Source: a virus. Taken from it: DNA of 45,330 nucleotides. The stretch lies in the IMG/VR virus record IMGVR_UViG_3300005529_000237, positions 1 to 45,330 of that record; one strand, written 5' to 3'. Positions 5,220-35,384 of this stretch are shown piece by piece. A program made the translations under genes and the position numbers. The notes below the pieces were generated by a model. That model was given only the letters and a program-made list of their open reading frames with translations, had not been told where the DNA came from and did no database searches. Every line of letters begins with the position of its first letter. Within the stretch, counting starts at the first letter, position 1.

Positions 5220-6865
5220 TGGCGACTGACGACACCACACAGGTACAGGACACCGAGGAAGAGAAGAAGCAGCCCTACGGACCGCCCGAGGACAAGGCAT
5301 ACGAGGCGGCGATTACGCCGATGCCCGCGCCTTCGATACAGTCGGCAGCCCAACAAGCTCCTGCGGCTAATCCCCCAACGATCACTGCGCCTATGGCGGC
5401 ACCATCACCCGTCACTGGCGCGGTGGCCGCAGGTCCGCTATCACCTGGGGAGGCCGCAATCCATCGCCTGTCGGGCGTCCAGCAGCAGAATCCGTTTGCC
5501 GTGCTGATGGCGCGCTCCGAGAACATCAGCAACCCATTCCTGCGCGTGCTGGCCAAGGCGGGCGGCGTGGCCGGGGCGGGCCTGGAGGGATTGTCCAAGG
5601 ATTATCCTGCCATCGAGCAGGAACGCATTGCAGAGGCGAATCAGCCTGGGGAGGCTGCGGCGCGCGCGGCGCAAACCGAGGCTACCACAGCCCATACCGC
5701 CGGGGAGAAGGCCCAGACTGCTGCGCTCCAAGAGGAAGCACCTGTGAAGCTGGCAGGCGAGAAGGCGACCACGGCCAAGACAGAAGCCGAAACCGCCATG
5801 ATGGGACGGCCTACGCTTCTGACCGGCGCCGACGACATTCAGATTGTGGGGCAAGGAACTCCGCAAGAACAGCGGTTCGATCGCTACAAGAACCCGGATG
5901 GCTCGACGCAATGGGTTCCCGAGGGGCAAGCTCCGGTTTGGCCTCCCCAGCAGTCCGCAGCAGGACAGCCGGCGGCAGGCGGTGGCACGGGTGGTGCTCC
6001 CGCTCCCGCGGCTGGTCCGGCCGGGCCCCAAGTTCCCGCCGCCGGGCCGCGCCCTGGGGCGCTTCCAGCGGGAGCAACGCGCATTCCCGCGCCGGTTACG
6101 CCCGCCGAACAGGCTGAACTTGCGCCGGTAGGTGCGGAAGCCGAACAGTACAACAAGCGCATTGCCTATGCCGTGGGAGACAAAGCCGCTGACTTTCAGG
6201 TTACGCCGCAGACGCCGCGAAAGCAGGCCGATGCAATAGAGGCTCAGGCCAAGAGTCAAGGAACGTTGGACGTTTCACAGGCCAATAGTAAGCGCGAAGC
6301 CAATACGGCAGCCGCGAATCTGGCGCGCCAGCCTGATGCGAGGCTGGACCGGAGTTATCAGTTCAATGCCACGCAATTAGACAAGGAACGCGTTCCCATC
6401 GAAGCCATGATGGGTAAAATCAGCGCGGCCACAACCAATGTGAACCTCAAATCCCCGCAGGCGGATGCCTTGCTGGCGCCGGAGATCCTTTCTATCGCAG
6501 CGGGCGGTGCGGGATCAGGTCTGCGCATGAATGAAGCTGAGATTTCCCGCATCGTCGGAGGCGCAACGCAGTGGACGCAATTGCAAACCGCGCTGAACAA
6601 ATGGAGTACCGATCCAGGCCATGCGACTTTTACTCCTGAGCAACGTGGCCAGATGGCCCAGATTCTCGATGCAGCCAAGGTAAAGGGTCAACAGAAGATG
6701 GCCGTAATCGAGTATGGCGAACAAGCGTTGAACGACGCCACGGACGTGTCACAGCATCGCTCGACGGTAGCCAATACGCGCAAGATGCTTGACGCGGTGG
6801 ACAACGGTAAAACCATTGAACGCAACAAGAAAACAGGGGAGTTGAGAATTGCCCCAGGACAATGA
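5219..6865 (+). CDS. Ala/Pro-rich putative ejection or internal virion protein, 548 aa
   Basis: ATG 5219 overlaps the previous stop by one base. Residues 1-80 are acidic then Pro/Ala-rich. Residues about 140-195 form an Ala/Glu/Thr helix (AARAAQTEATTAHTAGEKAQTAALQ), a likely coiled coil. A Pro/Gly/Ala linker spans about 240-300, and the last 250 residues look globular and helical. Low-complexity linkers between helical parts are typical of proteins that unfold to exit through the portal. It is the middle gene of a three-gene overlapping set (4590-8195) resembling the gp14/15/16 triplet of podoviruses in layout. No enzymatic motif was seen. Confidence 0.5.
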   Translation: MATDDTTQVQDTEEEKKQPYGPPEDKAYEAAITPMPAPSIQSAAQQAPAANPPTITAPMAAPSPVTGAVAAGPLSPGEAAIHRLSGVQQQNPFAVLMARSENISNPFLRVLAKAGGVAGAGLEGLSKDYPAIEQERIAEANQPGEAAARAAQTEATTAHTAGEKAQTAALQEEAPVKLAGEKATTAKTEAETAMMGRPTLLTGADDIQIVGQGTPQEQRFDRYKNPDGSTQWVPEGQAPVWPPQQSAAGQPAAGGGTGGAPAPAAGPAGPQVPAAGPRPGALPAGATRIPAPVTPAEQAELAPVGAEAEQYNKRIAYAVGDKAADFQVTPQTPRKQADAIEAQAKSQGTLDVSQANSKREANTAAANLARQPDARLDRSYQFNATQLDKERVPIEAMMGKISAATTNVNLKSPQADALLAPEILSIAAGGAGSGLRMNEAEISRIVGGATQWTQLQTALNKWSTDPGHATFTPEQRGQMAQILDAAKVKGQQKMAVIEYGEQALNDATDVSQHRSTVANTRKMLDAVDNGKTIERNKKTGELRIAPGQ

Positions 6866-8195
6866 TTGGGAGCCTATCTCTGGCCCTCAAGCAGCTTCTT
6901 CTACCGCCGTCGCTGATGGCGATTGGGAACCTGTAGCGAAGCCTGCACCAACGCCTCCGCCCGCCGCTCCGCGCGCATCCGGTCCTGCCATTGTGCAGCG
7001 TCACAATCCTCTCTACCGCACTTACGCGAATGCCACTCCGCAGAGTCGCCAACAAATCACCGATAAGGGTTTACCTGCACTTGAGGGCGTGGCTGTCGCT
7101 GCACCCTTGGCTATGACGGGAGTGGCCGCAATCGAAGCCCCTCTTGCAACTGCGGGAAGCGTGGCCGGAGGATACCTCGGTCAGAAGGCCGGCGGCGCAG
7201 TGGGTGGAGACGTGGGAAGCCTTGTCGGACACCCCGAAGTCGGGCGCACCATAGGCAAGATCGCGGGAGGTTTGGCTGGAGGGATTTACGGCGGCAGTGA
7301 AGCCGAACCCGCATTGAAACGTCTCGGCGTGCCGATTCCTGAATGGATGCGACCTGCGGCACTTCCAGCGGGAGCGATTCGTGCTCCTGTGGCTGGCCCC
7401 GAGGCTGGTCCGCAATTGAGTCCTGTATCTGTCCCTATGGCTGGCCCCGCCGCAGCCCAAGCAATTGATCCAGAAGTTCCACACGCACCAGTGGAAGGAC
7501 CAGTGGCAGGACCTGCGGCAGCGCAGGCCTATGCGCCCCTGCAAAGCTCCCCGCCCAGCGCGGCCGGCACGCGCGAGGTTACTGGACTGCGAAGCTCGCC
7601 GGAACAGGGCATCATTGCGCCGCGCACGCCTGAGCGTATCGCTGGAGATCGCACGCTTCCCCCGGCACCCGGACCGGCCGGTCCGACCGTGGAAGCGCCA
7701 GGCGAAGCCTATCCCGCCGCCGCGCCGCCCAAGACGACCAAGCAAGCCGTAACCGACATTGTGAATCAGGCTTACGGCGTGAAGCCGTTGGAGCCGAACG
7801 TGCCGCTGCGCGAGACAATCCCGGCCGCTGGTCCTACTCCTGAGCCGCAAGCCATTCCCGCGCCGGCCGGAGAACAGGAGCCGATGGTGTCTGAGCTTGC
7901 CAAGAAGTACCCGAACAAGGCCGTGCGCCAGATGGTGCACGTGCAGGGCGAGAATATGGTGAACGCGGTAGGCGACAATCCTGAGCTAATGCGTCAGATT
8001 CATGATCTGACGGCGGTAGACATTCGCCAGGCGCTTATCAACAGCGGCGAGGATATGGGGCAGACGCCGGTTACGAGTTCGAAGTTTGCCGGTCCAAAGA
8101 TCACGCGGCAGGAGGGATTTGACCGTCTGCTGGCGAAGGGGCTGACTCCGGCTGAGATTGTGAAGCTAGCGAAATCTTCCGAAGCCCCAAAATAG
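6849..8195 (+). CDS. Putative ejection protein with DWE repeats and glycine-zipper membrane segment, 448 aa
   Basis: Start chosen at TTG 6849, preceded by GGGGAG and overlapping the upstream gene by 17 bases. Two DWEP(I/V) motifs stand near residues 6 and 25, a pattern common in podoviral ejection proteins. Residues about 75-150 are a Gly/Ala membrane-like stretch (GSVAGGYLGQKAGGAVGG). After it come Pro/Ala/Gly-rich repeats (PVAGPAAAQ and similar) and a C-terminal helical domain of about 100 residues. A role in opening the host envelope during DNA entry is inferred. The last 95 bases overlap, tail to tail, the GroES-like gene on the other strand. Confidence 0.55.
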   Translation: MPQDNDWEPISGPQAASSTAVADGDWEPVAKPAPTPPPAAPRASGPAIVQRHNPLYRTYANATPQSRQQITDKGLPALEGVAVAAPLAMTGVAAIEAPLATAGSVAGGYLGQKAGGAVGGDVGSLVGHPEVGRTIGKIAGGLAGGIYGGSEAEPALKRLGVPIPEWMRPAALPAGAIRAPVAGPEAGPQLSPVSVPMAGPAAAQAIDPEVPHAPVEGPVAGPAAAQAYAPLQSSPPSAAGTREVTGLRSSPEQGIIAPRTPERIAGDRTLPPAPGPAGPTVEAPGEAYPAAAPPKTTKQAVTDIVNQAYGVKPLEPNVPLRETIPAAGPTPEPQAIPAPAGEQEPMVSELAKKYPNKAVRQMVHVQGENMVNAVGDNPELMRQIHDLTAVDIRQALINSGEDMGQTPVTSSKFAGPKITRQEGFDRLLAKGLTPAEIVKLAKSSEAPK

Positions 8196-8748
8196 CGTCT
8201 CGCTCATTCAGGATCAGGTATTCGCGCTCAATTCCGTCTTCATCAACCAGCCGAATCTCCGCGCCGTGGCTGGCGAACTTGTCAAAGAGCACCAGCTTTC
8301 CTTTTTGAACTTTCCTCACATCAGGGCCGACTTCCTTGACGTAGCCAATGTCGCTTTTGGCGCGCAGCGAATCCGGCAGTACAAGCGTGCTTGAATGCTC
8401 GCGCTCGACACGCTGCACAAGGATGGTTTCTCCAAAGGGTTCGCCTTCGTAACCGACTTGGGGCGAGATAGCAAATTCTAGAACTTCTCGTCCGGTCGGA
8501 GATTCAGCCCATGTTTTCATAACCGCAAGCTCTTCCGCGTGAATCGCAATAGGCTCCAAATTCGGTAATGGTTCAAACCGCGCCACCATCCCCGTCAACT
8601 CGCGGTATCGCTCCATCGTGATTCCGTACTTCTCCATCACGTAGGGAGCGTTCTGCACCTTCAAATCCTGTTCGAGTTCCGATTGCCCTGTGGCTTGCGT
8701 GAAAGTGGCACTGCGCTTTCCCGATGCGAGATCATCACCCTTGCTCAT
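8101..8748 (-). CDS. GroES-like co-chaperonin with long N-terminal extension, 215 aa
   Basis: Residues 105-190 match a GroES barrel: GETILVQRVERE opening, a mobile loop carrying the hydrophobic tripeptide L122-V123-L124, G-x-V-x-x-V-G-P, a K-G-K-L-V-L-F strand and the EREYLILNERDAILGL close. Residues 1-104 are an extension with no counterpart in the roughly 97-aa bacterial GroES, and the last 25 residues are a Pro/Ser/Ala tail. Start chosen at 8748: it has AAAGGA seven bases upstream and its ATGA overlaps the stop of the 68-aa gene. An in-frame ATG at 8820 would add 24 residues. It is third in an operon after GroEL and presumably caps that GroEL ring. Its 3' end overlaps the plus-strand ejection gene by 95 bp. 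Confidence 0.85.
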   Translation of the reverse strand: MSKGDDLASGKRSATFTQATGQSELEQDLKVQNAPYVMEKYGITMERYRELTGMVARFEPLPNLEPIAIHAEELAVMKTWAESPTGREVLEFAISPQVGYEGEPFGETILVQRVEREHSSTLVLPDSLRAKSDIGYVKEVGPDVRKVQKGKLVLFDKFASHGAEIRLVDEDGIEREYLILNERDAILGLRKISLASQSQPESAPSPADGQIPPAA

Positions 8749-8951
8749 TTTTGATCCTTTGGTCGAATTGGTACTCGGCACTTCGTCTTGGAAATTGGTT
8801 GAGATTCTTGAGTCAGGCATCCCCTCAAAAGACGTATGAATTGCTCGTCATCCGACTCTATCGTGAGAATTCCCCAATCCGAATCGGTATTCCCATAATC
8901 GGCGGTTATGCGAACAGGTCTGCTAGATTCGACCATGAAACCTGCGCCCAT
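8745..8951 (-). CDS. Small protein between GroEL and GroES genes, 68 aa
   Basis: Not recognised. The ATG directly follows the GroEL stop (TAA|ATG) and has a strong GGGGAGGG ribosome site inside the end of GroEL. Its TGA overlaps the GroES-like ATG. These couplings on both sides make it very likely translated. The sequence opens with mixed beta-type residues, has an acidic centre (ESDDEQFIRLLRG) and a basic C-terminus (PIRPKDQK). No signal, transmembrane segment or zinc motif is present. Position suggests a chaperonin-associated or substrate-adaptor role, which is inference only. Confidence 0.7.
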   Translation of the reverse strand: MGAGFMVESSRPVRITADYGNTDSDWGILTIESDDEQFIRLLRGCLTQESQPISKTKCRVPIRPKDQK

Positions 8952-10559
8952 TTATGCCCTCCCCGGCAAGCGATTCTTGGCCTTCTCTTCGGGTGATTCA
9001 ATAATCAGCGTCTCGGTGAGCAACATCGTCCCTGCTACGCTGGCCGCATTCTGCAAGGCGATGCGTACTACTTTCGTTGGGTCAAGGACGCCAGCTTCGA
9101 TCAAATCTTCGTAGGTATCGGTCAGCGCATTGTAGCCGCATGAGAAATTCGGGCAGCCGATAACTTTGGCGAGCACTTCCTGATCGTCCTGCCCGGCGTT
9201 CCGCGCGATGTGGCGCAGAGGTTCCTGCATAGCCGTGGCGACGATGTTCATGCCTTCGCTCTCAACGCCGCTCCCGTAGAAGTTCTGTACCAGCCGCGCC
9301 AGAGTGACGCCCCCGCCCGGCACAACGCCTTCCTCTACCGCGCACCGCGTAGCGAACAGCGCATCCTCAATCCGCGCTTTCTTCTCGCTCATCTCCACCT
9401 GAGATGCCGCGCCAACTTTGATGATGGATACGCCTCCAGTGAGCTTGGCAAGCCGCTCCTGTAAACGGTCCTTCTCGTACTCGCCCTGCTCAAGTTGCAA
9501 CTGTGTGCGGATGCCCTTGACCCGTAGCGCCACATCCATCTTGTGGGAATCGTCGGTGATGATCGTTGTGCCCGCCTTGGTGACGATGATCTTCTTGGCG
9601 CGGCCCAGATCCTCCATCTTCACATTTTCCGGCTTGTCGCCCAAGTCGTTCAGGATGGCGCGGCCGCCGGTGAGCGCGGCAATGTCGTTGAGCAGTTCCT
9701 TGCGGAAGGAGCCGACGCCGGGAACCTTCACCGCACACGAGCGCAAGCCGCCTTTGAGATTGTTGACCACCAGCAGCGGCAGAACTTCTCCTTCCACATC
9801 CTCCGCGATTACGAATAGCGACTTGCCCGACTTGGCGATGCCCTCGAAGATTCCGAGCACCGTTTTCATCGAGCCGAGCCGCTGTTCGCAGCACAGCACG
9901 TAGCAATCTTCCAGTACCGCTTCCTGTCGGTCCTGATCGGTTACGAAGTACGGGGAAATGAATCCGGTATTCAGCTTCATGCCCTCGACGGTTTCGAGCG
10001 TCGTTTCGAGGGTCTTGCTTTCTTCAACGGTGATAACCCCATCTTTGCCCGCTTTGCGTATGGCGGAAGCGATGAGGTCACCGATAATTGCATCGTTGTT
10101 GGCAGAAATTGTGGCCACAGAAACAATCGCATCACCGATAACGGGCTTCGAGACTTTATCAAGCTCGCCTCCCTTGCGGCAGATCAAGTCCACCGCGCGA
10201 TCTATGCCGCGCTTGATGGCTACCGAGTTCGCTTTCGCGGTGATGGCTTTCAGGCCCTCGCGGTAGATGGCGCGCGCGAGGATGGTTGAAGTTGTCGTCC
10301 CGTCGCCGGCATCGGAAGCTGTGTTTGCGGCGGCTTGCTTGACTAGCTGGGCGCCCGCGTCTTGTGCAAGGTCATCGAAAGAAATGTTCTTCGAGACTGT
10401 CACGCCATCGCGGGTTGAAAGCGGAAGATCGAATTTGTTGAAGATCAGCGCGTTTCGGCCCGCTGGCCCGAGGGTAGCGGCTACCGCATCGGTAAGTTTG
10501 TTGACGCCTTCGAGAATCTTTTCACGCGCTTCCGCGCCGTACAGGATGTGTTTGCCCAT
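8952..10559 (-). CDS. groEL: Phage-encoded GroEL chaperonin, 535 aa
   Basis: A near full-length group I chaperonin subunit (E. coli GroEL is 548 aa). Visible signatures include GPAGRNALI at about 31-39, R-D-G-V-T-V with D51, the ATP motif A-G-D86-G-T-T-T, SPYFVTD at 202-208, IAEDVEGE at 251-258, V-V-P-G-G-G-V-T-L near 412-420, and D399 where E. coli has the ATP-hydrolysing D398. Helix positions that bind substrate and GroES (L235, F238, L263, V264, V265) stay hydrophobic. The usual C-terminal Gly-Gly-Met tail is absent, and the protein ends in a basic NRLPGRA. It starts 3 bases after the scaffold-like gene and is followed without a gap by a 68-aa gene and a GroES-like gene. It presumably folds capsid or other virion proteins. 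Confidence 0.95.
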   Translation of the reverse strand: MGKHILYGAEAREKILEGVNKLTDAVAATLGPAGRNALIFNKFDLPLSTRDGVTVSKNISFDDLAQDAGAQLVKQAAANTASDAGDGTTTSTILARAIYREGLKAITAKANSVAIKRGIDRAVDLICRKGGELDKVSKPVIGDAIVSVATISANNDAIIGDLIASAIRKAGKDGVITVEESKTLETTLETVEGMKLNTGFISPYFVTDQDRQEAVLEDCYVLCCEQRLGSMKTVLGIFEGIAKSGKSLFVIAEDVEGEVLPLLVVNNLKGGLRSCAVKVPGVGSFRKELLNDIAALTGGRAILNDLGDKPENVKMEDLGRAKKIIVTKAGTTIITDDSHKMDVALRVKGIRTQLQLEQGEYEKDRLQERLAKLTGGVSIIKVGAASQVEMSEKKARIEDALFATRCAVEEGVVPGGGVTLARLVQNFYGSGVESEGMNIVATAMQEPLRHIARNAGQDDQEVLAKVIGCPNFSCGYNALTDTYEDLIEAGVLDPTKVVRIALQNAASVAGTMLLTETLIIESPEEKAKNRLPGRA

Positions 10560-10562
10560 AGA

Positions 10563-11951
10563 TCACCAGATGTAAATGGTGTCCCCTCCGCCCTTTTTGA
10601 GGAATTTGCGCTGGCCCAATAGTTCCTCTGTGCCCTTCCTGCCATACTTATTTCTCATCGCCGGATAGTCGATTTGCGATGGATCTGGGCCGCCCTGAAT
10701 CATCGGCCCGTTGTAGCGAATCTCTTTCGGCGCTGGCGTCGTCCCTGCCGGAGACTCCGTACGCGATTGCGCCTCGGCGCGCCGCGTCCCGGTATCGCCT
10801 GAGATTCCTTTGTACTTCCGCGCTTCGCGCTTGGCAGCCATCGGCATATTGCGAGCGATGGCCGACTTGAGCACGCGCAGGAATTTCTCGGTGTCACCCG
10901 AGCGCAACAAATCGTTGGCGTTCTGCTGGAACGTGGCGTCTTTCTTCTGGAGCGCGTTGAAGCTGTTTTTGATGTCGTTGAGCAATTCTACTTGAGCATC
11001 GCCGGAAAGCCGCATCCCCTTGAACGCGATCTTGATGGCTTGCCGCGCCGCGCTATCAATCAGCGGAGATGCTTGCAGGTTCACGCTCTTGAGGTACAGC
11101 GTGTGCTTTTCGATGTCGAGCTTCTTGCGATCATCATTCGCCGGACCGGAGCCAGCACCTTCGCCCACTTCCGCTTTTGCCGCCTTGTCTACCATGTTGA
11201 TCGTTTCAGCAATCTGATCGAGCAGCTTGCGCGCCGGGGAATCCGCGGGAACGTGGTTGTAAAGGTCATTGAACGCCGCGAGCGTGGACCGTCCTTGCTG
11301 ATTCGGCGCCAGAAGCGTCTGCATGAATACCTGGCCCATGTGCTTCGCCCATACCTGCGGAGCCGCTTTGTTGAGCCGCGCCAGCATCGGGCCGGACAGC
11401 TTCACCATGCCCTGCGGATTGTCCTTTATCCACGTGTCGAGCACGGATTCATCGCCCTGCTGAAACTTGCTCCACGTGTCAGACCATTCCTTCGCGTCGG
11501 TTTCGATCTGCTGGAGGCCGCCCAGGTCATCAACTTTCGTCTTGAAGGCTTTGAGTTCGGCCGGCGTCTTGAATCCATTGCCCTTCCACTGGCGCAATTC
11601 GTAGTGGCCCTGCTTGAGCGCCTTGAGCGCGTCGGGATGATCTTTCAGCGCGGCTTCGATGGCGGGATCGAATGGCTTGGCAGCGTCGTAGCCGAGGTCT
11701 ATTTCCTCGGTCTGTTTTTCGGGTTCTTCGTGGCGGTACTTTTCTCCGTCGCCCTCGAAGGTAAATTCGAAGCTATCCTCTGCTCCAGTATCCGCAGGAG
11801 GCGCAGCGGGAGTCTCTGGGGCTGATACGGGTGGCTCATAGCTGGGCGTGATCTTCGGAGGCGCTGGGGGTGCAACGGTTCCTGTTCCACTCGCCGCACC
11901 GCCGCCCGCTCCTGCGGCCGAGCCTGCACCTGCCGGAATGTCTGGTGTCAT
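10563..11951 (-). CDS. Putative capsid scaffolding protein, 462 aa
   Basis: ATG 11951 has GGGGAG seven bases upstream. The first 60 residues are Gly/Ala/Pro-rich, followed by an acidic stretch (about 60-90) and then mainly amphipathic helix to about 380. The C-terminus is basic (KYGRKGTEELLGQRKFLKKGGG). An acidic disordered start, long helices and a basic capsid-contacting end are typical of scaffolds. No scaffold lies between portal (ends 33470) and capsid (starts 33661), its usual place, so this gene is the best candidate. Scaffold identity is inferred, with no diagnostic motif. It is the first gene of the minus-strand operon with GroEL, behind the promoter at 12014-12041. Confidence 0.55.
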   Translation of the reverse strand: MTPDIPAGAGSAAGAGGGAASGTGTVAPPAPPKITPSYEPPVSAPETPAAPPADTGAEDSFEFTFEGDGEKYRHEEPEKQTEEIDLGYDAAKPFDPAIEAALKDHPDALKALKQGHYELRQWKGNGFKTPAELKAFKTKVDDLGGLQQIETDAKEWSDTWSKFQQGDESVLDTWIKDNPQGMVKLSGPMLARLNKAAPQVWAKHMGQVFMQTLLAPNQQGRSTLAAFNDLYNHVPADSPARKLLDQIAETINMVDKAAKAEVGEGAGSGPANDDRKKLDIEKHTLYLKSVNLQASPLIDSAARQAIKIAFKGMRLSGDAQVELLNDIKNSFNALQKKDATFQQNANDLLRSGDTEKFLRVLKSAIARNMPMAAKREARKYKGISGDTGTRRAEAQSRTESPAGTTPAPKEIRYNGPMIQGGPDPSQIDYPAMRNKYGRKGTEELLGQRKFLKKGGGDTIYIW

Positions 11952-12846: not shown

Positions 12847-12922
12847 GCACCCTTAGCTCAACGGTAAGAGCGGCCGGCTCATAATCGGCGGGTTAAAGGT
12901 TCGAGTCCTTTAGGGTGCACCA
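12847..12922 (+). tRNA. tRNA with CAT anticodon (Met or lysidine-type Ile), CCA encoded
   Basis: Full cloverleaf: acceptor GCACCCT (12847-12853) with AGGGTGC (12912-12918), D-stem GCTC/GAGC, anticodon stem GCCGG/TCGGC (one G-U) with loop CTCATAA (12878-12884), T-stem AAAGG/CCTTT with TTCGAGT loop, discriminator A and encoded CCA (12920-12922). Anticodon CAT could be elongator Met or the Ile tRNA modified to read AUA. The D-arm region resembles E. coli tRNA-Ile2, but identity cannot be settled by eye. Confidence 0.93.
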
Positions 12923-22552: not shown

Positions 22553-23473
22553 ATGAACGTACTTGTGACCGGGGCGTGCGGATTTTTAGGGCGTCACGTC
22601 ATTGCCAAATTGATTGCAAATCCAAAGTGCGAGACCGTTGTTGCCTTTGACAATCTTGATCCGTTGTGTGGTGGCGACGGTGATGCCACAGCCGCCATGC
22701 ACTGCCGAGCCTTCAAAGGCGACGTTACCAATCATCGTGATATTGAGCTAGCCATTCGCGAGAACGCGATTGACTCCATCGTCCATCTCGCCGCTTACGG
22801 CCGCAATCTGACCTGTCAGGACCGACCGCAAGAGGCTTGGCGCGTGAACGTCGGCGGTACGATGAACGTGCTGGAGATTGCGGCGCTGCGCGGCCTCAAG
22901 CGCGTAGTGGTGTGTTCAAGCAATATCGTGCTCTCGGATCAGTGGACGGTGTACAAGTGCACCAAGCGCGCCGTTGAATCGCTAGTGCGCACGAATGCGG
23001 AGTTTGGCCTGAGCGTGATGGGGCTGCGACCGTCGAATATCTACGGTGCCGGGCAATCCAAGACCGAATACCAGCTTTGCGCTTTTGCCGGCCTGAATAA
23101 ATCCTACGCCGAGAATGGCAAGTTCTTCATCTCTGGCGATGGCACGCAGTCGCGCGATTGGGTTCACGCCGAGGACGTAGCGCGCGCGTTTGAATTGGCG
23201 CTGTTCTCCGACTTCAAGGGCGACACGCTGGACGTTTGTACGGGCACGCTGACTTCGATGAACCGGATTGCTGAGATGCTGGGCGTGCCAGTCGAATACA
23301 CTGCGGCGCGGCCCGGAGATGCAAAGGAGTTGGTCAGTGATCGGTGGTTAGCTAAAGAGAAACTGAACTTTTGGGCAAAAATCAAACTGGAGGAACGAAT
23401 CCGGGACGCTTTCCCGGATGTGCCAAGGAGGGTGAATGAAGCTCACGAAGAAGCAACTTTACGATTACCATGA
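22553..23473 (+). CDS. NAD-dependent epimerase/dehydratase (extended SDR), 306 aa
   Basis: ATG 22553. The Rossmann start T-G-A-C-G-F-L-G (6-13) binds NAD. D-N-L at 33-35 lies at the end of strand 2. The active site has S122/S123 and Y134-x-x-x-K138. R-P-S-N-I-Y-G-A-G and the R-D-W-V-H-A-E-D-V-A segment are typical of UDP-sugar epimerases and dehydratases. It would supply a modified nucleotide sugar for the glycosyltransferase downstream. A weak promoter (TTGCTG at 22494, TATAGA at 22518, 18-bp spacer) may precede it. Its start faces the sigma gene head to head with almost no gap. Confidence 0.85.
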   Translation: MNVLVTGACGFLGRHVIAKLIANPKCETVVAFDNLDPLCGGDGDATAAMHCRAFKGDVTNHRDIELAIRENAIDSIVHLAAYGRNLTCQDRPQEAWRVNVGGTMNVLEIAALRGLKRVVVCSSNIVLSDQWTVYKCTKRAVESLVRTNAEFGLSVMGLRPSNIYGAGQSKTEYQLCAFAGLNKSYAENGKFFISGDGTQSRDWVHAEDVARAFELALFSDFKGDTLDVCTGTLTSMNRIAEMLGVPVEYTAARPGDAKELVSDRWLAKEKLNFWAKIKLEERIRDAFPDVPRRVNEAHEEATLRLP

Positions 23474-23687
23474 CATAGATCGCGGAGAGCTAAAGCTGGT
23501 GCGGATTGGGCATGCGCTGTGGGCTATGCTCAGAAAGGCCCGGAAATCTTACCTGCCCAAGGAAGAACGCATACTTATGGAGGCTATTGAGACGATCATG
23601 CGGCTTAAAAAGGAGAAACGAGCTGAATTGAAGGTTCAGAATGCCGCAAGATCAGCAAAATTGGCCGAGAGGTTTCGCACTGCGTGA
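23436..23687 (+). CDS. Small basic helical protein, 83 aa
   Basis: ATG 23436 has AAGGAGGGTGA just upstream and overlaps the epimerase by 38 bases. It is Lys/Arg-rich and helical throughout (WAMLRKARKSYLPKEERI, IMRLKKEKRAELKVQ). It may bind nucleic acid or act as an adaptor. Not recognised. Its stop overlaps the methyltransferase GTG. Confidence 0.6.
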   Translation: MKLTKKQLYDYHDIDRGELKLVRIGHALWAMLRKARKSYLPKEERILMEAIETIMRLKKEKRAELKVQNAARSAKLAERFRTA

Positions 23688-24244
23688 TTGGACCCGCCCA
23701 ACAGATTCCTGGTTGGATGAGCGAGACGGAACTGAACTGGCTCGCCAAACAGGCACGCTCCCATTGGATGATCTGCGAGATTGGCTGCTGGCGTGGCCGC
23801 TCGACGCGCTGCCTGGCCGATAACACGCAAGGCCGCATCTGCGCCGTGGATATGTGGGCCGACACGATGTACGGCTTTGGTGAGGACTCCTGGTGGCAGA
23901 AGGAAGAGGACTTGTGGCGCAAGAAAGACTGGCTGCTGCGCGAATTCCTAAAGAACCTCGGACCGCACATCGGCAAGACCGTTGCTCCGTTCCGCATTTC
24001 CTCGCTCGAAGCCGTGCAACTGTTCCGCGACGTGTTCGCCTTCGACATGATTTTCATAGACGCAGACCACGAGTACGAAAGCGTGCGAGACGACATTCTG
24101 GCGTGGAAGCAACTGCTGGCGCCGGGCGGCTTGCTCTGCGGCCATGACTTTTCACCTGATTACTGGACGGGGGTGATCCGCGCAGTGCAGGAGCTGGTAC
24201 CCGGATTCCAGACGGTTGATACGATTTGGTGGGCGCAACCGTGA
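23684..24244 (+). CDS. SAM-dependent methyltransferase, Methyltransf_24 type, 186 aa
   Basis: GTG 23684 is coupled by GTGA. Motif I E-I-G-C-W-R-G-R-S-T (32-41) is the SAM loop, A-V-D-M-W marks strand 2, and F-I-D-A-D-H-E (124-130) followed by L-L-A-P-G-G-L-L-C-G-H-D is the class-defining stretch. Proteins of this family often sit in glycan gene clusters and methylate sugars. Flanking epimerase and glycosyltransferase genes support a sugar O-methyltransferase, though a protein or small-molecule substrate remains possible. Confidence 0.8.
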   Translation: MIGPAQQIPGWMSETELNWLAKQARSHWMICEIGCWRGRSTRCLADNTQGRICAVDMWADTMYGFGEDSWWQKEEDLWRKKDWLLREFLKNLGPHIGKTVAPFRISSLEAVQLFRDVFAFDMIFIDADHEYESVRDDILAWKQLLAPGGLLCGHDFSPDYWTGVIRAVQELVPGFQTVDTIWWAQP

Positions 24245-24387
24245 TCGCTCATATTTGTGGTTGGATCAATGCGATAGCGTGTGTGACTTGTATTATCAGA
24301 GGTATTCGGGGTGAAGAGATTAAGTTTACTCCGTCAATAGCCGCAACAATATTTGCCACCGCTGCCGCGTTTTGGTTGACCCGATGA
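24241..24387 (+). CDS. 48-aa membrane protein between methyltransferase and glycosyltransferase
   Basis: GTG 24241 overlaps the methyltransferase TGA, and its own TGA overlaps the glycosyltransferase ATG. Two hydrophobic segments (WINAIACVTCII and SIAATIFATAAAFWLT) flank a charged turn (RGIRGEEIK), so it is probably a two-span hairpin membrane protein. Without it there would be a 139-base gap. It is more AT-rich than its neighbours. It could anchor the glycosylation enzymes at the membrane, which is inference. Confidence 0.6.
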   Translation: MIAHICGWINAIACVTCIIRGIRGEEIKFTPSIAATIFATAAAFWLTR

Positions 24388-25754
24388 AGCCTGTGATCCT
24401 CATCGGTGCGTCCAAGCACGATCTGGATAACGGCAATATCGAAATGCTGCGCACCACCTGGCTGCGCGACTGCAAGATCCCCTACCAAATCTTCGTGGGC
24501 CGCACCGTTGAAAACGCCGTAGGGGCCAATATGACGGTACTGGATGCCCCGGACGGCCTTTGGGTCGAACTCACGTACAAAACACGCCGGATGATGCGCT
24601 GGGCGGCGCCGCAAGCCTTTACGCACGTGTTCCGGTGCGACGTGGATACGCTTGTGCACATGGAACGGCTACTGGCCAGCGGATTCGAGGCGCATGACTA
24701 CTTTGGCTCGACGCTGGACGTGCCGACAAACTGGCCATTCTGTCATGGCGGGCCGGGCTTCTGGCTCAGCATGAAGGCCGTGCGAATCCTGGCCGACGCC
24801 GCGATTGACCAAAACTCCGAGATTCACAAGCTGCAGGATCAGTGGATCGGTGACACGCTGGGGGTGGCCGGCATCAATCCCGCGCATGATCCGCGTTTCT
24901 CGATGGGCTGGAGCTATGGCCGCGACGAGCCGCGCATTCTCCCCGACAACGATACGATCTCCTGCCATATGTCGAAAGGCACCGGAAACTATGACAAAAA
25001 ATGGATGCGCGAGGCTTATGACCGAATGACGACGGCGAACGCTTTCACATTGCAATATCCGTGGATCAAGGAACACGGCGCAAAGACTTCCGCGGTGCCG
25101 AATCCGAACCCAACGTCAAAGGTGTTGATCGCCTGCAATTCCTGCTGGAAGGATGTGCGTAATGGAAGCAATGCGGCGATCCGCGATACCTGGGGCAAGG
25201 AACTGCCGGCCGGATGGGACTTGCGCTTCTTCATGGGCGATCGCAATTTCTCGCCCGAGGAAGAAAAGCTGCTGCTTGATCCCAACTTCATTGGCTCACC
25301 GGGCACGCTGGGCGAGCTGGCACCGGCGACGGCCAAGAAATGCGATATCGGCGATGCGTGGACGCTGTGTCCCGATGAAGTCATGCTACATGATGTACCA
25401 GATGGTTACCTGGGGCTACCTTGGAAGACAGTAGAGAGCCTGCGCTGGGCACTGGAGCTTGGCTATGATTATATCTTCCGCATCTTCACAGATACTTATG
25501 TCTTTGTTGAACGCCTATATAAGTGTGGTTTCGAGTCTTATGACGCTCTTGGCGTGGTGCTTTTTAATTGCCCTCCTTGCCCTGCTCATCCTGACTCTAG
25601 CCATTTCTGTCCGCTGGGCGGCGACGGTTACTGGACATCGCGCAAAGCAGCGCAAGCAATCCTCTACTATACCGACGCCGAACTTGAGAAAATGACGGAC
25701 GACCAATTGCGAGCGTTAGGCGCGGAGTTCGAATATGTCGAAGTCGAAGCGTGA
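24384..25754 (+). CDS. Tandem-duplicated GT31/Fringe-like glycosyltransferase, 456 aa
   Basis: ATG 24384 is coupled by ATGA. Two copies of one fold are visible. Copy 1 (about 1-235) has T-W-L-R near 25, D86-V-D88, G-F-E-A-H-D and G-G-P-G-F-W-L-S. Copy 2 (about 245-456) has A-I-R-D-T-W, F-R-I-F-T-D-T-Y near 365-372, G-F-E-S-Y-D and G-G-D-G-Y-W-T-S. The DxD metal motif is intact in copy 1, but its first Asp is Phe368 in copy 2. The A-I-R-x-T-W and DxD pattern matches beta-1,3-galactosyltransferase (GT31) enzymes. Bases about 25380-25600 are clearly more AT-rich than copy 1, suggesting a separate origin of copy 2. Confidence 0.75.
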   Translation: MKPVILIGASKHDLDNGNIEMLRTTWLRDCKIPYQIFVGRTVENAVGANMTVLDAPDGLWVELTYKTRRMMRWAAPQAFTHVFRCDVDTLVHMERLLASGFEAHDYFGSTLDVPTNWPFCHGGPGFWLSMKAVRILADAAIDQNSEIHKLQDQWIGDTLGVAGINPAHDPRFSMGWSYGRDEPRILPDNDTISCHMSKGTGNYDKKWMREAYDRMTTANAFTLQYPWIKEHGAKTSAVPNPNPTSKVLIACNSCWKDVRNGSNAAIRDTWGKELPAGWDLRFFMGDRNFSPEEEKLLLDPNFIGSPGTLGELAPATAKKCDIGDAWTLCPDEVMLHDVPDGYLGLPWKTVESLRWALELGYDYIFRIFTDTYVFVERLYKCGFESYDALGVVLFNCPPCPAHPDSSHFCPLGGDGYWTSRKAAQAILYYTDAELEKMTDDQLRALGAEFEYVEVEA

Positions 25755-27231: not shown

Positions 27232-28932
27232 TTGTCGTTCCTGATTGACTTCACGGGCGTCCACGGCCACGACTGCCCCTGCTCCCTCGAAGAATACATG
27301 CACGAGTTTCATGGCACGCGCTACAGCGTGTATGAGACAAACGACGAAGGCCAGATTCTCCGCTGCATCTTCCATCCGCTTCCCAAGCAGCTTGTCTATT
27401 TCCTTGCGTCCGAGGTCTACATCCTATTCGGTGGAGGCCGCGGCCCCGGCAAGACTGAGGCGATCTGTTGGGACGCTCTGTTCAAAGCGTATCTGGTGCC
27501 TGGTTCGGTGCAAATTATCTTTCGCCGGACGATGGGCGAACTCAAGAAAACGATTATCAATCGCTTTAAGTCAATGCCTTCCGATCTGCGCGGCAAATAT
27601 ATTGGCGAACAGGGAAACGAGCGCGTAGAGCTTCCCAACGGCAGCAAAATCTATTTCTCATCGGCTCGCAGCGAGGATGACACGCGCAAGATGCTGTCGG
27701 GCGAATTCCTTTGCGTTCATTTCGATGAATGGTCGGAATGGCCGTACACGCAATGGAAGTTCATCAGCGGTTCGGTACGCGCGACCGTCGAGCGTGACGT
27801 GCTGGGCCGCAAGGTAATCGCGCAAGTCAAGGGCGCCACGAACCCAGGCGGCATCTGCGGCGATGTGTTGAATCACTTGTTCGGATGCGACATCGAGAAA
27901 TCCTGCCCGATCGGTGAAGATCCCGAATCTTACAACGCTGGCGAATACCTGTTCATCAAGACGCTGGTGGACGACAACCCGGCTTACTCAGCGGATCGGC
28001 CGGCGGGCCAAGCCTATCGCAAAATCCTGATGTCGATGCCGCGCAAGATTAGGGATGCGTGGCTGTACGGCAAGTGGAGCGGCTTCGAGGGCCAGTATTT
28101 CGATTGCTTCGAGCGCGAGGTTACCGAGGTTCCCCATGACGTGATTGTGCGGCTCATGTACAAGCAGTATTGGCAGCCGATCTGGATTGCATACGATTGG
28201 GGCAAAACACACCACAGCTACGCGACCTGGAACACCTTCGTCGAACTTGATCTGTACGACGGCAGCAAGAAGAAATTCCCTGTGACTTACCGGGAGCTTC
28301 TGATTCGAGGGCTAAGCGAGACAGCGGTGGCCGGGGAAATAGCGGCCATGACGCCAGAGGACGAACGCAAGCGCGTGGATAAGATTTATGGTGCGCCTGA
28401 TACGTTCGGCGGCGATCTGCTCTCGCGTGCGCGCCGCATGGGCGATGTGTTCACGGTCAATGATCTGCCGCGTCCGATGCCAGCATTCAACAAGCGTTCG
28501 GACGGCTTCACGCTGATGTACACGCTACTGGACCCGTTCAACCACATGCAAGAAGGCGACATCGCGCGCAATAACCTGAAAGACGGCTGGACGAAATTCT
28601 GCTCCGATTGGCTGATTAGCGAGGAGTGTCCGCATCTGTTTGAGGCGCTGGGCTGGGCGCTGGCGAGCAAGAAGCCTGGCAAGGATGGTGATATTGACGA
28701 TGAGGGTGATAGCCCTTTGCTTGACGTTCTGGACGGCAGCCGTTATGGGATCGCTTCGCGGATTAAGCCGGAGGAAAAGCCGTTCAAGGAAGTGATGCGC
28801 GAGGAAATTGGCGCACTGCCCGTGGTAGGCTCAAGCCGCTACATCAAGCACCTGCAACTCATGGCAGAGGAAAAGAAGGTATCGGCCCCATACTATTCGA
28901 CTTCGCGTAGATTCAAGCCGAGGAGGCACTAA
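27232..28932 (+). CDS. Terminase large subunit, 566 aa
   Basis: TTG 27232 follows the previous TGA directly. Walker A is G-G-G-R-G-P-G-K-T-E (67-76) and Walker B is C-V-H-F-D-E (161-166). The C-terminal nuclease domain starts near I-A-Y-D-W-G (about 323), and a second acidic cluster with D-V-L-D-G-S lies near 500. Length fits the family. It cuts concatemers and pumps DNA into proheads through the portal. The 30-bp end overlap gives no information on headful versus cos packaging. The TAA overlaps the next ATG. Confidence 0.92.
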   Translation: MSFLIDFTGVHGHDCPCSLEEYMHEFHGTRYSVYETNDEGQILRCIFHPLPKQLVYFLASEVYILFGGGRGPGKTEAICWDALFKAYLVPGSVQIIFRRTMGELKKTIINRFKSMPSDLRGKYIGEQGNERVELPNGSKIYFSSARSEDDTRKMLSGEFLCVHFDEWSEWPYTQWKFISGSVRATVERDVLGRKVIAQVKGATNPGGICGDVLNHLFGCDIEKSCPIGEDPESYNAGEYLFIKTLVDDNPAYSADRPAGQAYRKILMSMPRKIRDAWLYGKWSGFEGQYFDCFEREVTEVPHDVIVRLMYKQYWQPIWIAYDWGKTHHSYATWNTFVELDLYDGSKKKFPVTYRELLIRGLSETAVAGEIAAMTPEDERKRVDKIYGAPDTFGGDLLSRARRMGDVFTVNDLPRPMPAFNKRSDGFTLMYTLLDPFNHMQEGDIARNNLKDGWTKFCSDWLISEECPHLFEALGWALASKKPGKDGDIDDEGDSPLLDVLDGSRYGIASRIKPEEKPFKEVMREEIGALPVVGSSRYIKHLQLMAEEKKVSAPYYSTSRRFKPRRH

Positions 28933-31001: not shown

Positions 31002-33470
31002 ATGCCCGACTTCAAGCCAGACGTTTCAACCGATCAGGACAGCACCAGCCTGCCCGAAGTTCCTAAGCTGTTTGCGCCCGGCGAGCTGACGCAGAACGAC
31101 GGCGCCGCGCTCTATGGATTCCGCAACGAACGCCTGCCCAAGCACTATCAGGACATCGCCAAGAATCTCGTGCAGAAGGTCGCGCAGACCGATATGTTCG
31201 CACGCATTGACGAGGTAAAGCGGGCGGGTGAGGCGCGATTCTACTGGCGATCCATGTTCGATGCGTATTTCGATGAGCGCAACGCCATCTGGGACATGCC
31301 CAGCAGCAATCAGGATTACGGCGACACCGGCGACGTCGCGCTGACCTACGGGTTCAATATCTATCAGGCATTCGGGCGCGGCTTTATTACGCAAGTCGGC
31401 GTGCCGCCCAGCGTCAAGTTCATCGCCACCGACATCAATAGCCCCGATGCGATGCGCATTTCCTCATCGGCTGATGCGCTGCGCAAGAAAATCGAGTATC
31501 AGAATCACGTGGAAGTGTTTGCCGAGGAAACCGCGCGGTATATGTGGACCGATGGCCGCGTGTGCTTCTATTCGCGCTGGGTTTGCGATGGCGCGCGCTT
31601 TGGCTATGACGATGAGGTTCACGTTGACGAAGCGCCCGAAGGGTTGGGCGAAGCTGGCCCACCACCGGCCAAAAAGCCGCGGCAGCCGCGCGGCGGCGAA
31701 GTCATTGATGCGTTTGGAGTGCTCGAAACGAAGGTTCCGATCAACATGCGACGGCGCAGCGACTTCCCCTTTATTCAGCTCTCCTACGAAATTGACCTGA
31801 GTTCGGCCAAGGCGATGTATCCGTGGATCAGCGCGACGATCAGCGGCGGCATGCCCGGCCCCGGCGAATACAACTTTGACCGCACCACGCGCATTGCGAC
31901 CACGCAGGGCATTCGGCTTCTGACCCAGACCGGCGATACCGTCGCGCAACTGCCGACCTGGCAGCGCACATGGCTGCGTCCCAGCTTCTTTGCGAACATC
32001 GAGGACAAAGGAGACCGCAAGTTCTTCGAGGAAAACTTCCCCGATGGCATGTTTGTGGCTTTTGTGGGCGATACTTATGCCGAATCGCGCAACGAGAGCA
32101 TGGACGATCACTGGACGGTGTGTCATCCGATCCAGGGCGACGGCCAGACCACACCGGCCAGCGGCTATCTCATCATGTCGGTGCAGGACTGCTTCAATGA
32201 CATGACCGATTTGCAGATGGAACGCTTTATGAAGGCGATTCCGGTGCTGTGGGGCGATAAAGGGCTGTTCGACTTCGCGGCGATGAGCAAGCAGCATGCC
32301 GGGCCGGGCGCACAGTGGCCTACCAAGCGCGACCTTGAGCCTACCGAGAACATCAACCAGAAAATGTTTGCCGAGCCGTTCCCGCCGCAAGATCCAAGCG
32401 TGGGATTGTTCTACGATCAGCTTTTCAACGCCATTCCGCAATTTCTCACAGGCATCAACGCTCCGACGCTGGGCGACTCTGACCCATCCAATGAGACCAA
32501 GGGCGGCATCCTGGCGCTCAGGGACGCTTCCAGGGGCCAGCAAGGGGTAGCTTGGAAGGCGTTTCGACGTTCCTACGCGCAATCAATGGAGCAACTGGTG
32601 CGGATTGGCGCTTATTTCCGTGCATCGGAGGCCGAGGATGGCAAAATCAAGATCACATCGCCGGAAACCGCCGAAATCGTCGTTGACCTCGAGGATTTGC
32701 ACGACGGAAACTTCTACTGCGTGCCCGATGGCGACGAAAGCTACCCACGCACCCATGAGGACCGCCAAGCAGCGTATAACGTGCTGGTGCAGGCTGCTAC
32801 TGCTGGCAATGCGGGCGCGGCGGCTGTCCTTTCCGAGCCTAAAAACGCCATTATCCTGAAAGATGTCATCGCCATCCCCGGTTTGGTGATCCCCGGCGCC
32901 GATGAGACCGAAAAGCAGCTTGGCGAGATCAAGGAACTGCTCAAGGAAGCCCCTATTCCCAACGTAGAGGCCGCCCAGACGTTCGCTGTTGCATCCATTG
33001 CGGCCAAGTTGACCGGGAAGCCTGCCCCGCCGCCTCTGACGCCCCAGCAGGCTCTCAGGCCCTCTATCGGCATAGACCCGGATTTCGACGTGCACGCCAT
33101 AGAGTTCAAAGCCGGGCAGGATTGGATTAATTCCCCGGCCGGCATTCGCGAGCGGCGCGAGAATCCAGACGGCTTTATGAACGTGCGGCTCCATTTGCTC
33201 ATGCACAAGCAGGCGATGGAAGCCCAGCAGCAACAGCAGATGCAGCAGGCCATTCAAGTCGAGGCGGGCAAGGCCGTCGCCAAGAGCGCGGGCGAGGCGG
33301 CGTCGACCAAGCCCAAGAGTCCGGCTGAGTCGATCAACTTCAAGGATGCAGGACCGGCATTGCGCGTGGCGATCGCTAATCAGGGCGGTCCGGAGCTAGG
33401 TCATGCTGCGCTGGCCGATGAGGCGTCGAATGTGGCGCACGAATCCTTGACAGGTCAACCCGTGCAATAG
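31002..33470 (+). CDS. Portal protein, 822 aa
   Basis: ATG 31002 follows the previous TGA directly. Size and position after TerL fit a podoviral (P22-like) portal. Residues about 60-200 hold helical clip and wing elements (A-R-F-Y-W-R-S-M-F-D-A-Y). A conserved-type stretch near 440-530 (Y-D-Q-L-F-N-A-I-P-Q-F-L-T-G-I, then S-N-E-T-K-G-G-I-L-A-L-R-D) matches portals of this group. A Gln-rich helix near 740-760 (QQQQQMQQA) and a Lys/Ala end suggest a C-terminal barrel. It forms the DNA channel at one capsid vertex. A strong terminator follows. Confidence 0.85.
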   Translation: MPDFKPDVSTDQDSTSLPEVPKLFAPGELTQNDGAALYGFRNERLPKHYQDIAKNLVQKVAQTDMFARIDEVKRAGEARFYWRSMFDAYFDERNAIWDMPSSNQDYGDTGDVALTYGFNIYQAFGRGFITQVGVPPSVKFIATDINSPDAMRISSSADALRKKIEYQNHVEVFAEETARYMWTDGRVCFYSRWVCDGARFGYDDEVHVDEAPEGLGEAGPPPAKKPRQPRGGEVIDAFGVLETKVPINMRRRSDFPFIQLSYEIDLSSAKAMYPWISATISGGMPGPGEYNFDRTTRIATTQGIRLLTQTGDTVAQLPTWQRTWLRPSFFANIEDKGDRKFFEENFPDGMFVAFVGDTYAESRNESMDDHWTVCHPIQGDGQTTPASGYLIMSVQDCFNDMTDLQMERFMKAIPVLWGDKGLFDFAAMSKQHAGPGAQWPTKRDLEPTENINQKMFAEPFPPQDPSVGLFYDQLFNAIPQFLTGINAPTLGDSDPSNETKGGILALRDASRGQQGVAWKAFRRSYAQSMEQLVRIGAYFRASEAEDGKIKITSPETAEIVVDLEDLHDGNFYCVPDGDESYPRTHEDRQAAYNVLVQAATAGNAGAAAVLSEPKNAIILKDVIAIPGLVIPGADETEKQLGEIKELLKEAPIPNVEAAQTFAVASIAAKLTGKPAPPPLTPQQALRPSIGIDPDFDVHAIEFKAGQDWINSPAGIRERRENPDGFMNVRLHLLMHKQAMEAQQQQQMQQAIQVEAGKAVAKSAGEAASTKPKSPAESINFKDAGPALRVAIANQGGPELGHAALADEASNVAHESLTGQPVQ

Positions 33471-33660: not shown

Positions 33661-35013
33661 ATGGCTGATGCATTGTCAGGAACTCCTCTAAATTCGGCTG
33701 CCGCCATCGGCGTCGAAATGGAAAAGCTCAAGGACAACGTTTACGCGCAGTGGAATCAAGACGATTTGCTGCTGACGCGCATCGCGGTCCGCAACGATCT
33801 CAAAGTTTCCGCGCGTCTGTGCCGTATTCCGCTGCTGGTTCAGCCGGGCGCAACCTTCGGGCAATTCGTTCCCGATGGCACTGGCGACAGCATGGGCACT
33901 GGCGGCGGTTCGATCTACGACGAGGGCGTTTGCACTCCCGTCTATTTCGTGCAGTCCTGCCAGGTGACCAAGGAAGCCGAGTGGGCGACTGACGCCGATG
34001 AAAAGGCGCTGGTGAACGTCTTCAAGGAAGAATTCAAGACCAACCTTCGGGAATTCCGCACCAACCTGGACGGCTTGGCGGCATCCTCGAGCGGCGCGGG
34101 CGATCTGGGCACGGTGACCGCAACGCCTCCGGTGTCGGTGGGTCAGAACTGGCTCAACGTTTCCAACGCGAACAACTTCCGCGCGGGCAGCACCTATCAG
34201 GTGCTCGCAAGCATCGGCGGTTCCAATCGCGGCACGATTCTGGTGCTCACCGCTGACTTGTCCAACAACATCATCTACCTGGTGGAAGTCTCGGGCGCGT
34301 ACTACCCGTCCGGCACGACCTCCGGCGACACCCTGATCGTTTCGGGCGCGAGCGGCGCGGCCACGGCCAGCTATTCTCCCGACCGCTACACCACGGCGAC
34401 CATTGCGGCTTCGCTCAACGGCGTGCCCGCACTGAATTATCAGTCCTCGACGGGTTCATGGTTCGGCATCCCGCGCTCCAGCTATCCGGGCGTGCTGAAC
34501 GCGGAATACGTCAACGGTGCGACCGATGCGCTAACCCCGCAGATGGTTCAACTCCTGCAATCCCTCGTGCAACGCGCCAATGGCGCCGAGAACGAGGAAA
34601 TGGAAGAGTTCATCTGCACTGCCAACGTGGATCAGGTCACGGCATGGGAAAACATCGGTCTGTACACCACGTCCGGCATCGCAACGGCATTCACCGAGCA
34701 AACCGGCGAGAAGCGCATGGATTATCTTGCCAAGGGTCGCGTCAAGACGATCAATGGCCACGAACTCATCACCAACATCAAGTCTCGCCCAGGGCGGCTG
34801 GATTTCATGTCGCTCAAGTATTATTTCCGCATCGAAACCAAGCCGGCCGCGCTGTATGACGTGGACGGCGTGACCGTGTTCCCGCTGTACGGCTCCGATG
34901 GCGGCGTGGCTCCTACCCAGGCATTCTATTTCGTCTGCGGTATGCAGCTGGCCATGAACAAGCCGCGCGGCGTGGCATACATCGACAACCTTTCACTCCC
35001 GGCCGGATTCTAG
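33661..35013 (+). CDS. Major capsid protein (HK97-fold type), 450 aa
   Basis: ATG 33661 with GAGGTGA upstream. It lies between portal and connector genes, flanked by two terminators, as expected for a gene needing a discrete abundant transcript. The N-terminal helix is V18-E-M-E-K-L-K-D-N-V. Residues about 140-235 look like a beta insertion domain (Gly/Ser/Thr strands). The last part (R-L-D-F-M-S-L-K-Y-Y-F-R-I, then F-P-L-Y-G-S-D-G-G) is typical of P- and A-domain strands. No obvious protease is encoded. A likely client of the phage GroEL, by inference. Confidence 0.85.
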   Translation: MADALSGTPLNSAAAIGVEMEKLKDNVYAQWNQDDLLLTRIAVRNDLKVSARLCRIPLLVQPGATFGQFVPDGTGDSMGTGGGSIYDEGVCTPVYFVQSCQVTKEAEWATDADEKALVNVFKEEFKTNLREFRTNLDGLAASSSGAGDLGTVTATPPVSVGQNWLNVSNANNFRAGSTYQVLASIGGSNRGTILVLTADLSNNIIYLVEVSGAYYPSGTTSGDTLIVSGASGAATASYSPDRYTTATIAASLNGVPALNYQSSTGSWFGIPRSSYPGVLNAEYVNGATDALTPQMVQLLQSLVQRANGAENEEMEEFICTANVDQVTAWENIGLYTTSGIATAFTEQTGEKRMDYLAKGRVKTINGHELITNIKSRPGRLDFMSLKYYFRIETKPAALYDVDGVTVFPLYGSDGGVAPTQAFYFVCGMQLAMNKPRGVAYIDNLSLPAGF

Positions 35014-35093: not shown

Positions 35094-35384
35094 ATGGATC
35101 GCCGAAACTTTCTCAGGCTAACGATTGGCGGCGTTGCAGCAGCGGCAGCGGTGCGCACGTTTCCATTCCGCGTGTACAGCTTTCCGAGCGACGTAGAGCT
35201 TGTTCCTGTATACGGCATTGATGGTGGACTGCCTACTTCTTACCTTTCTGTAGAAATGGAAAAGATAAAAGAATCAGTATTCACGCAACTTGCATGGGAT
35301 AATTTTGCGCTTAAGAAGATTTCTGTTCATGGTCCGATACAAATCGGAGGAGGGTCTTCATTTAGAAAAATTTTGCACCAATAG
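35094..35384 (+). CDS. Tat-signal protein with capsid-like segment, 96 aa
   Basis: ATG 35094, no ribosome site. Residues 1-22 are a twin-arginine signal: R3-R4-N-F-L, then a Gly/Ala hydrophobic core. After F-P-F-R-V-Y-S-F-P, residues 37-45 (VPVYGIDGG) resemble the capsid protein's F-P-L-Y-G-S-D-G-G. Residues 53-79, starting VEMEK, match capsid residues 18-44 at 12 of 27 positions by eye. The gene is more AT-rich than its neighbours, so it is not a recent copy. Exported folded or with a partner, it could act outside the cytoplasm, or the motif may only mimic a Tat signal. A +1 shift near its end would join the next frame. Confidence 0.6.
   Translation: MDRRNFLRLTIGGVAAAAAVRTFPFRVYSFPSDVELVPVYGIDGGLPTSYLSVEMEKIKESVFTQLAWDNFALKKISVHGPIQIGGGSSFRKILHQ

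Follow-up and report, generated by a model that had tools for sequence, protein, structure and literature searches.

A GroEL-GroES pair inherited with virion genes in a family of metagenomic phages: a likely virus-adapted chaperonin for head morphogenesis

Introduction

Work on chaperonin-assisted folding of phage capsid proteins has mostly used host GroEL, for lambda and T4, and the lid-independent chaperonins of giant phages. The T4 co-chaperonin gp31 lacks a roof, and its cage, which is larger and more open, is believed to aid folding of the T4 capsid protein (PMC6318259). The chaperonins of phages EL, OBP and AR9 are reported to need no co-chaperonin (PMC9598537, PMC5934643). Environmental viral genomes had already been found to contain GroEL genes (PMC5332604), and both GroEL and GroES are encoded by Maribacter phage Panino (PMC11590407) and Vibrio phage Pv27 (PMC12063606). 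Here we describe a GroEL-GroES pair in IMG/VR virus record IMGVR_UViG_3300005529_000237, a stretch of 45,330 nucleotides that was analysed at its full length and that we call the window. We propose that this pair is likely a virus-adapted group I chaperonin that is vertically inherited and serves head morphogenesis.

An earlier reading of this DNA, made without database searches (the sequence-only reading), had held that phages usually supply only one half of a chaperonin. Cultured phages with both halves contradict this view. When GroEL and GroES were searched against phage genomes, we found the two together in Flavobacterium phages elemo and immuto, in Cellulophaga phage phi40:1 and, by hidden Markov model, in Bacteroides phage SJC03.

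Results

The window locus consists of four open reading frames (ORFs) on the minus strand, namely a 462-residue protein that we call P462 (11951-10563), GroEL (535 residues, 10559-8952), a 68-residue ORF (8951-8745) and GroES (8820-8101; 239 residues when counted from the first ATG). GroEL matches the Cpn60 family over its full length, as in group I chaperonins (Pfam PF00118, E = 1e-61; PHROG 5725, E = 4e-142), and GroES matches Cpn10 (PF00166, E = 1.7e-8) over residues 127-208 of the 239-residue version. The genes are tightly packed: 3 nt separate P462 from GroEL, the GroEL stop codon is directly joined to the start of the 68-residue ORF (TAA|ATG), and a GroES start at 8748 lies inside an ATGA overlap with AAAGGA upstream. 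The 8748 start, which gives a lid of 215 residues (8101-8748, minus strand), is supported by this coupling, by the ribosome-binding site and by a conserved N-terminus, GD-LASG, common to the window lid and three relatives. Most of what the sequence-only reading had described here is borne out, including the four genes at 8101-11951, both couplings, three intact GroEL ATPase residues and a 104-residue GroES extension, which fits a Cpn10 domain that begins near residue 100 of 215. Upstream of P462 (11952-12117, minus strand), we read by eye a promoter-like TTTACA-16-TATAAC; our pattern scan, which demands T as the last base of the second hexamer, does not list it.

The chaperonin pair and P462 are conserved in related phages. 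Using portal and capsid searches, we gathered seven related contigs, each 27 kb or longer, from several metagenomes (G001, G003, G036, G004, G005, G038 and G006; G038 is the same species as G005 by GroEL), which together with the window form the window family. P462, GroEL and GroES are present in all seven, and misassembly between 8.1 and 12.0 kb, a concern raised by the sequence-only reading, is therefore excluded. The three genes are missing from a short fragment (G037, 8.3 kb) and from more distant portal relatives, most of them fragments. Profiles of GroES and P462 from the window's clade, searched against all of IMG/VR, recovered only known members.

The local order of these genes differs between relatives. 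The window and G001 have the order P462-GroEL-X-GroES, where X stands for an unrelated intervening gene, and G003 and G036 have P462-PAPS-reductase-like-GroEL-GroES (PAPS, 3'-phosphoadenosine 5'-phosphosulfate); in all four the unit runs antiparallel to the virion genes, and in the window the module also differs in base skew. G005, G038 and G006 carry P462-GroES-GroEL followed, after other genes, by the terminase large subunit (TerL), portal and capsid genes on one strand. In G004, GroEL-GroES-TerL, P462 and portal-capsid follow one another on one strand, with other genes before and after P462. Thus, in four relatives (G004, G005, G038 and G006) the pair lies on the structural strand just upstream of TerL and near the portal and capsid genes.

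Despite this reshuffling, the chaperonin has descended within the family. In a tree of 43 rows, the window-family GroELs form one clade (support 100/99), and the GroELs of Bacteroidota phages, Vibrio phages and a crAss-type phage fall outside it; the cellular sample of this tree is small, mostly from one phylum and without known Acidobacteriota. The same deep splits, {G005, G006}, G004 and {window, G001, G003, G036}, recur in the GroEL, capsid-like, portal-like and P462 trees. The gene trees vary in their finer branching, and resolution is lower for TerL and GroES. The swap between GroES-GroEL and GroEL-GroES orders had suggested independent captures within the family, an idea that we rejected given the single GroEL clade. 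The simplest account of these trees would be a single old capture, after which the chaperonin descended with the virion genes and the local gene order was rearranged.

D51, D86 and D399, equivalent to the catalytic D52, D87 and D398 of E. coli GroEL, are invariant in all window-family GroELs. Between the window and G001, dN (nonsynonymous divergence) is 0.12 and dS (synonymous divergence) is 1.8, which is near saturation, for a dN/dS of ~0.07; GroEL is under purifying selection. Because of this ratio and the significant family matches, the chaperonin genes are real, well beyond chance. Apical positions that bind client and lid (the equivalents of Y199, S201, Y203, F204, L234, L237, L259, V263 and V264) are for the most part retained among members of the window's clade. 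At the ring interface, positions equivalent to E. coli S463 and V464 are changed in all window-family GroELs, and G005 and G006 have lost part of this stretch; the R197-E386 salt bridge of E. coli is lost in the family as well. The altered interface residues hint at weaker ring contacts and prove nothing. The Gly-Met tail is absent from the window GroEL, as it is in several of the sampled bacteria and phages. In one scan, the closest cellular GroELs were those of Ignavibacteriae, Planctomycetaceae and Polaribacter, at 47-50% identity, whereas the match to OBP covers 23% of the query at 27% identity and PBS1 reaches 22%. In sequence, the window GroEL is much nearer to group I chaperonins than to those of giant phages.

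The lid is a Cpn10 protein with two unusual features. In an AlphaFold2 (AF2) model, the Cpn10 domain has a predicted local distance difference test score (pLDDT) mostly of 86-94, lower in the loop, and a Foldseek search with this model finds Cpn10 structures (2.9e-6), with T4 gp31 among the matches. The fold match to gp31 has only 14% identity, and we therefore do not claim direct descent. The mobile loop has an LVL tripeptide aligned with IVL of E. coli GroES. The first unusual feature is the roof, in that the hairpin segment that forms it is missing (a gap of 8-9 residues) in all seven distinct window-family GroES sequences. In the same alignment, the roof is also missing from the lids of elemo, SJC03, L102 and L103, and it is kept in the GroES of immuto, Vibrio D93 and one bacterium. 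Roof loss thus recurs across several viral GroES lineages that carry their own GroEL, and the window lid falls into a viral roofless subtype of the gp31 type. L102 and L103, together with L100, are other uncultured phage contigs in which a short GroES directly follows GroEL; two of these contigs are ~60 kb.

The second feature is an extension of ~100 residues ahead of the Cpn10 domain, for which the AF2 model predicts a three-helix mini-domain (residues 24-56, pLDDT 79-88). The window, G003, G036 and probably G005 share a recognisable form of it; G001 has a short, different one, and G004 and G006 have none. Given its absence from two relatives, the extension is not essential to the mechanism of the family, and we rejected it as a defining trait. 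At its other end, the GroES gene shares 95 bases (8101-8195), tail to tail, with the plus-strand ORF 6849-8195, such that the C-terminal tail of the lid is encoded within this overlap. A similar overlap is found in G001 (L002 11856-11953).

The third conserved gene, P462 (10563-11951, minus strand), encodes a 50-kDa protein without cysteine whose first 90 residues are disordered and rich in Ala, Gly and Pro. Its AF2 model, of low confidence, has a helical middle and a small, better-predicted C-terminal domain. We found no significant family or fold match for P462 in Pfam, PHROGs, PDB sequences or Foldseek searches of PDB and BFVD, nothing significant by hhalign against the genes between portal and capsid in HMO-2011 and MQM1, and no relatives by tblastn of phage records. 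Scaffold genes of tailed phages usually sit between the portal and capsid genes; the window has no gene between its portal-like and capsid-like genes. P462 lies inside the structural gene run in G004 and beside the chaperonin pair elsewhere. Its partly disordered, helical architecture would fit the scaffold type. Based on position and architecture, P462 is a good candidate for a scaffold or head-morphogenesis protein.

The remaining genes of the locus are passengers. The 68-residue ORF (8745-8951, minus strand) has a ribosome-binding site and is coupled to GroEL, has no family match in Pfam or PHROG, and is absent in five of five relatives tested. No gene separates GroEL from GroES in two of the window's closest relatives. 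In the third, G001, the place is taken by an unrelated 444-residue ORF (L002:10075-11409) with GIY-YIG/NUMOD3 homing-endonuclease-like and C5-methyltransferase-like parts. A PAPS-reductase-like gene lies between P462 and GroEL in G003 (35206-35994; PHROG 424, 2.3e-30) and G036 (33988-34776), and the passenger in G005 is a 111-residue ORF. We rejected the 68-residue gene as a module member, as it is not conserved in relatives; the passenger genes are not part of the machine, which leaves P462, GroEL and GroES as the conserved set.

The window carries a 30-bp direct terminal repeat (1-30 and 45301-45330), and its genome is therefore probably complete and assembled as a circle. G003, G004 and G036 have terminal repeats of 127 bp, consistent with circular assembly. 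From its general appearance, the window might come from a soil phage, which is a guess. The virion genes are on the plus strand. TerL (27232-28932; PHROG 2, 7.9e-29; Pfam Terminase_6N, 1.5e-8) is related to that of HMO-2011-type podoviruses. A portal-like protein of 822 residues (31002-33470) is assigned by its position after TerL and by a conserved motif, TGI...NETKGGI..L, of which TG...T.GGI..L is shared with the HMO-2011 head-tail adaptor. Directly 3' of it, a 450-residue, 48-kDa protein (33661-35013) is the best-conserved protein of the family (55-90% identity) and is presumably the major capsid protein. Family and homology searches gave no significant match for either protein; relatives of the two genes were not found among 50,697 phage records, nor of the capsid-like gene among 84,980 prokaryote genomes.

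Other genes of the window include a cell-wall hydrolase and a lone tRNA-Met (12847-12922) just past the start of the chaperonin operon. A region at 22553-25754 encodes a nicotinamide adenine dinucleotide (NAD)-dependent epimerase (Pfam, 7e-40) followed by proteins similar to sugar-modifying enzymes, several of which are kept in relatives. Two very large proteins are encoded, of 1195 and 1271 residues. The 1195-residue protein (40735-44322) has a signal-peptide-like N-terminus and a C-terminal immunoglobulin domain of the Cep192/ASH type; a second signal-like start is found at 38430.

Discussion

We propose that the window phage and its relatives probably fold their own capsid proteins. Both the GroEL ring and the GroES lid would be made by the phage itself, as part of a head-morphogenesis gene set. 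Using an apical groove that is largely conserved, an ATP-driven GroEL would bind unfolded virion proteins, the most likely client being the 48-kDa capsid-like protein and perhaps also P462. GroES would then dock by the LVL motif of its mobile loop and close the cage; under a roofless lid, the top of this cage would probably be more open or roomier, as has been proposed for T4 gp31. Of the capsid-folding module and scaffold-like protein put forward in the sequence-only reading, we retain a complete pair that stands beside a likely morphogenesis gene and is kept in every member that could be checked, in four of them within a terminase-portal-capsid run, and we drop the 68-residue gene. The scaffold-like character of P462 agrees with its position and architecture and finds no echo in any family or fold match.

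Several observations weigh against our proposal. Within the clade of the window itself, the module runs opposite to the capsid genes and lies far from them. In the alignment, the GroELs of G004-G006 have diverged at several substrate and GroES contact positions, and clients or docking may therefore differ. GroES is a fast-evolving protein with a poorly resolved tree. The capsid-like, portal-like and P462 identities are based on position, architecture and one motif, with no significant homology. Lastly, a capsid client of the chaperonin is something that we infer rather than observe directly, and the same is true of P462 as a scaffold.

An alternative is that the pair acts as a general folding or stress helper of the virus, serving many late proteins (adhesins, terminase, tail) or replacing host chaperonin that is lost during takeover, with no special link to the capsid. 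The replication-type neighbourhoods of chaperonin genes in some other phages agree with such a role (the gene is beside DNA polymerase A in immuto and near it in phi40:1), as do the separate antiparallel operon of the window's clade and the size of some of the proteins encoded (1195 and 1271 residues). We nevertheless consider a general helper unlikely, given that the pair lies near TerL and upstream of portal- and capsid-like genes in four relatives, is inherited with virion genes and is accompanied by P462 in all members. The changes at the S463/V464 equivalents, the deletions in G005 and G006 and the lost R197-E386 salt bridge could also be taken as signs of a single-ring or holdase-like chaperonin akin to those of EL, OBP and AR9, which need no co-chaperonin (PMC9598537, PMC5934643), with the GroES-like protein as an optional or repurposed cap. 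We find this improbable, as a GroES gene that keeps its mobile-loop motif stands next to GroEL in all members and the identity of the window GroEL to bacterial GroEL is ~50%, far above its partial match to OBP or its similarity to PBS1.

Recent capture of host chaperonin genes, or an assembly join, would leave the locus without a phage function. The antiparallel placement and different base skew in the window, and the position of the GroEL clade near bacterial sequences in the tree, would be expected from such an event. Against it, the same genes recur, in differing local orders, in seven related contigs from several metagenomes, the family clade has long internal branches, GroEL is under purifying selection, and no close cellular relative of GroEL was found (best ~50%), making either event very hard to credit.

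A bolder extension of the head-morphogenesis proposal is a capsid-assembly factory, in which a P462 scaffold works with a phage-only, possibly single-ring or separable, GroEL and a roofless lid, the lid extension recruits virion proteins, and the roof has been lost repeatedly as an adaptation to capsid clients. We regard this combination as speculative and rather doubtful. More generally, the window combines a compact phage genome (~45 kb) with an intact cage-and-lid chaperonin that has been passed on alongside virion genes. With its family, one could ask directly whether a virus adapts GroEL as well as GroES to its capsid protein. That viral lids have repeatedly lost the roof points to a shared adaptation, which is open to structural tests.

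Among the described systems, the elemo phages (Elemovirus, e.g. MT497098), of ~60 kb, resemble the window in having adjacent GroEL and GroES genes in a short unit opposite to its neighbours and in having a roofless GroES. Elemo differs in having GroEL on a separate branch and a plain GroES of 83 residues, and its fetched region has no P462 relative and, where read, no terminase or portal link. Immuto, phi40:1, SJC03, Panino and Pv27 likewise encode both homologues, but with other pair orders, placements and host groups, with independent GroEL branches where sampled, and with no P462 relative in the fetched regions or by tblastn of phage records. T4 gp31 shares with the window lid a viral Cpn10 fold without the roof hairpin; however, its partner is host GroEL, and it lacks the N-terminal extension of ~100 residues. 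The EL, OBP and AR9 proteins are also phage-encoded and GroEL-like but are far more divergent and are reported to need no co-chaperonin, whereas the window GroEL has an adjacent GroES gene and ~50% identity to bacterial GroEL. Bacterial group I chaperonins share the catalytic residues, apical groove and mobile loop, with GroEL identity up to ~50%; unlike them, the window has a roofless, N-extended lid, altered ring-interface residues, no Gly-Met tail and, in its clade, a GroEL-first gene order. Paired phage GroEL and GroES are therefore already known, and the novelty lies in the phage group, in the link to P462 and to a terminase-portal-capsid run, and in the roofless, often N-extended lid of this family.

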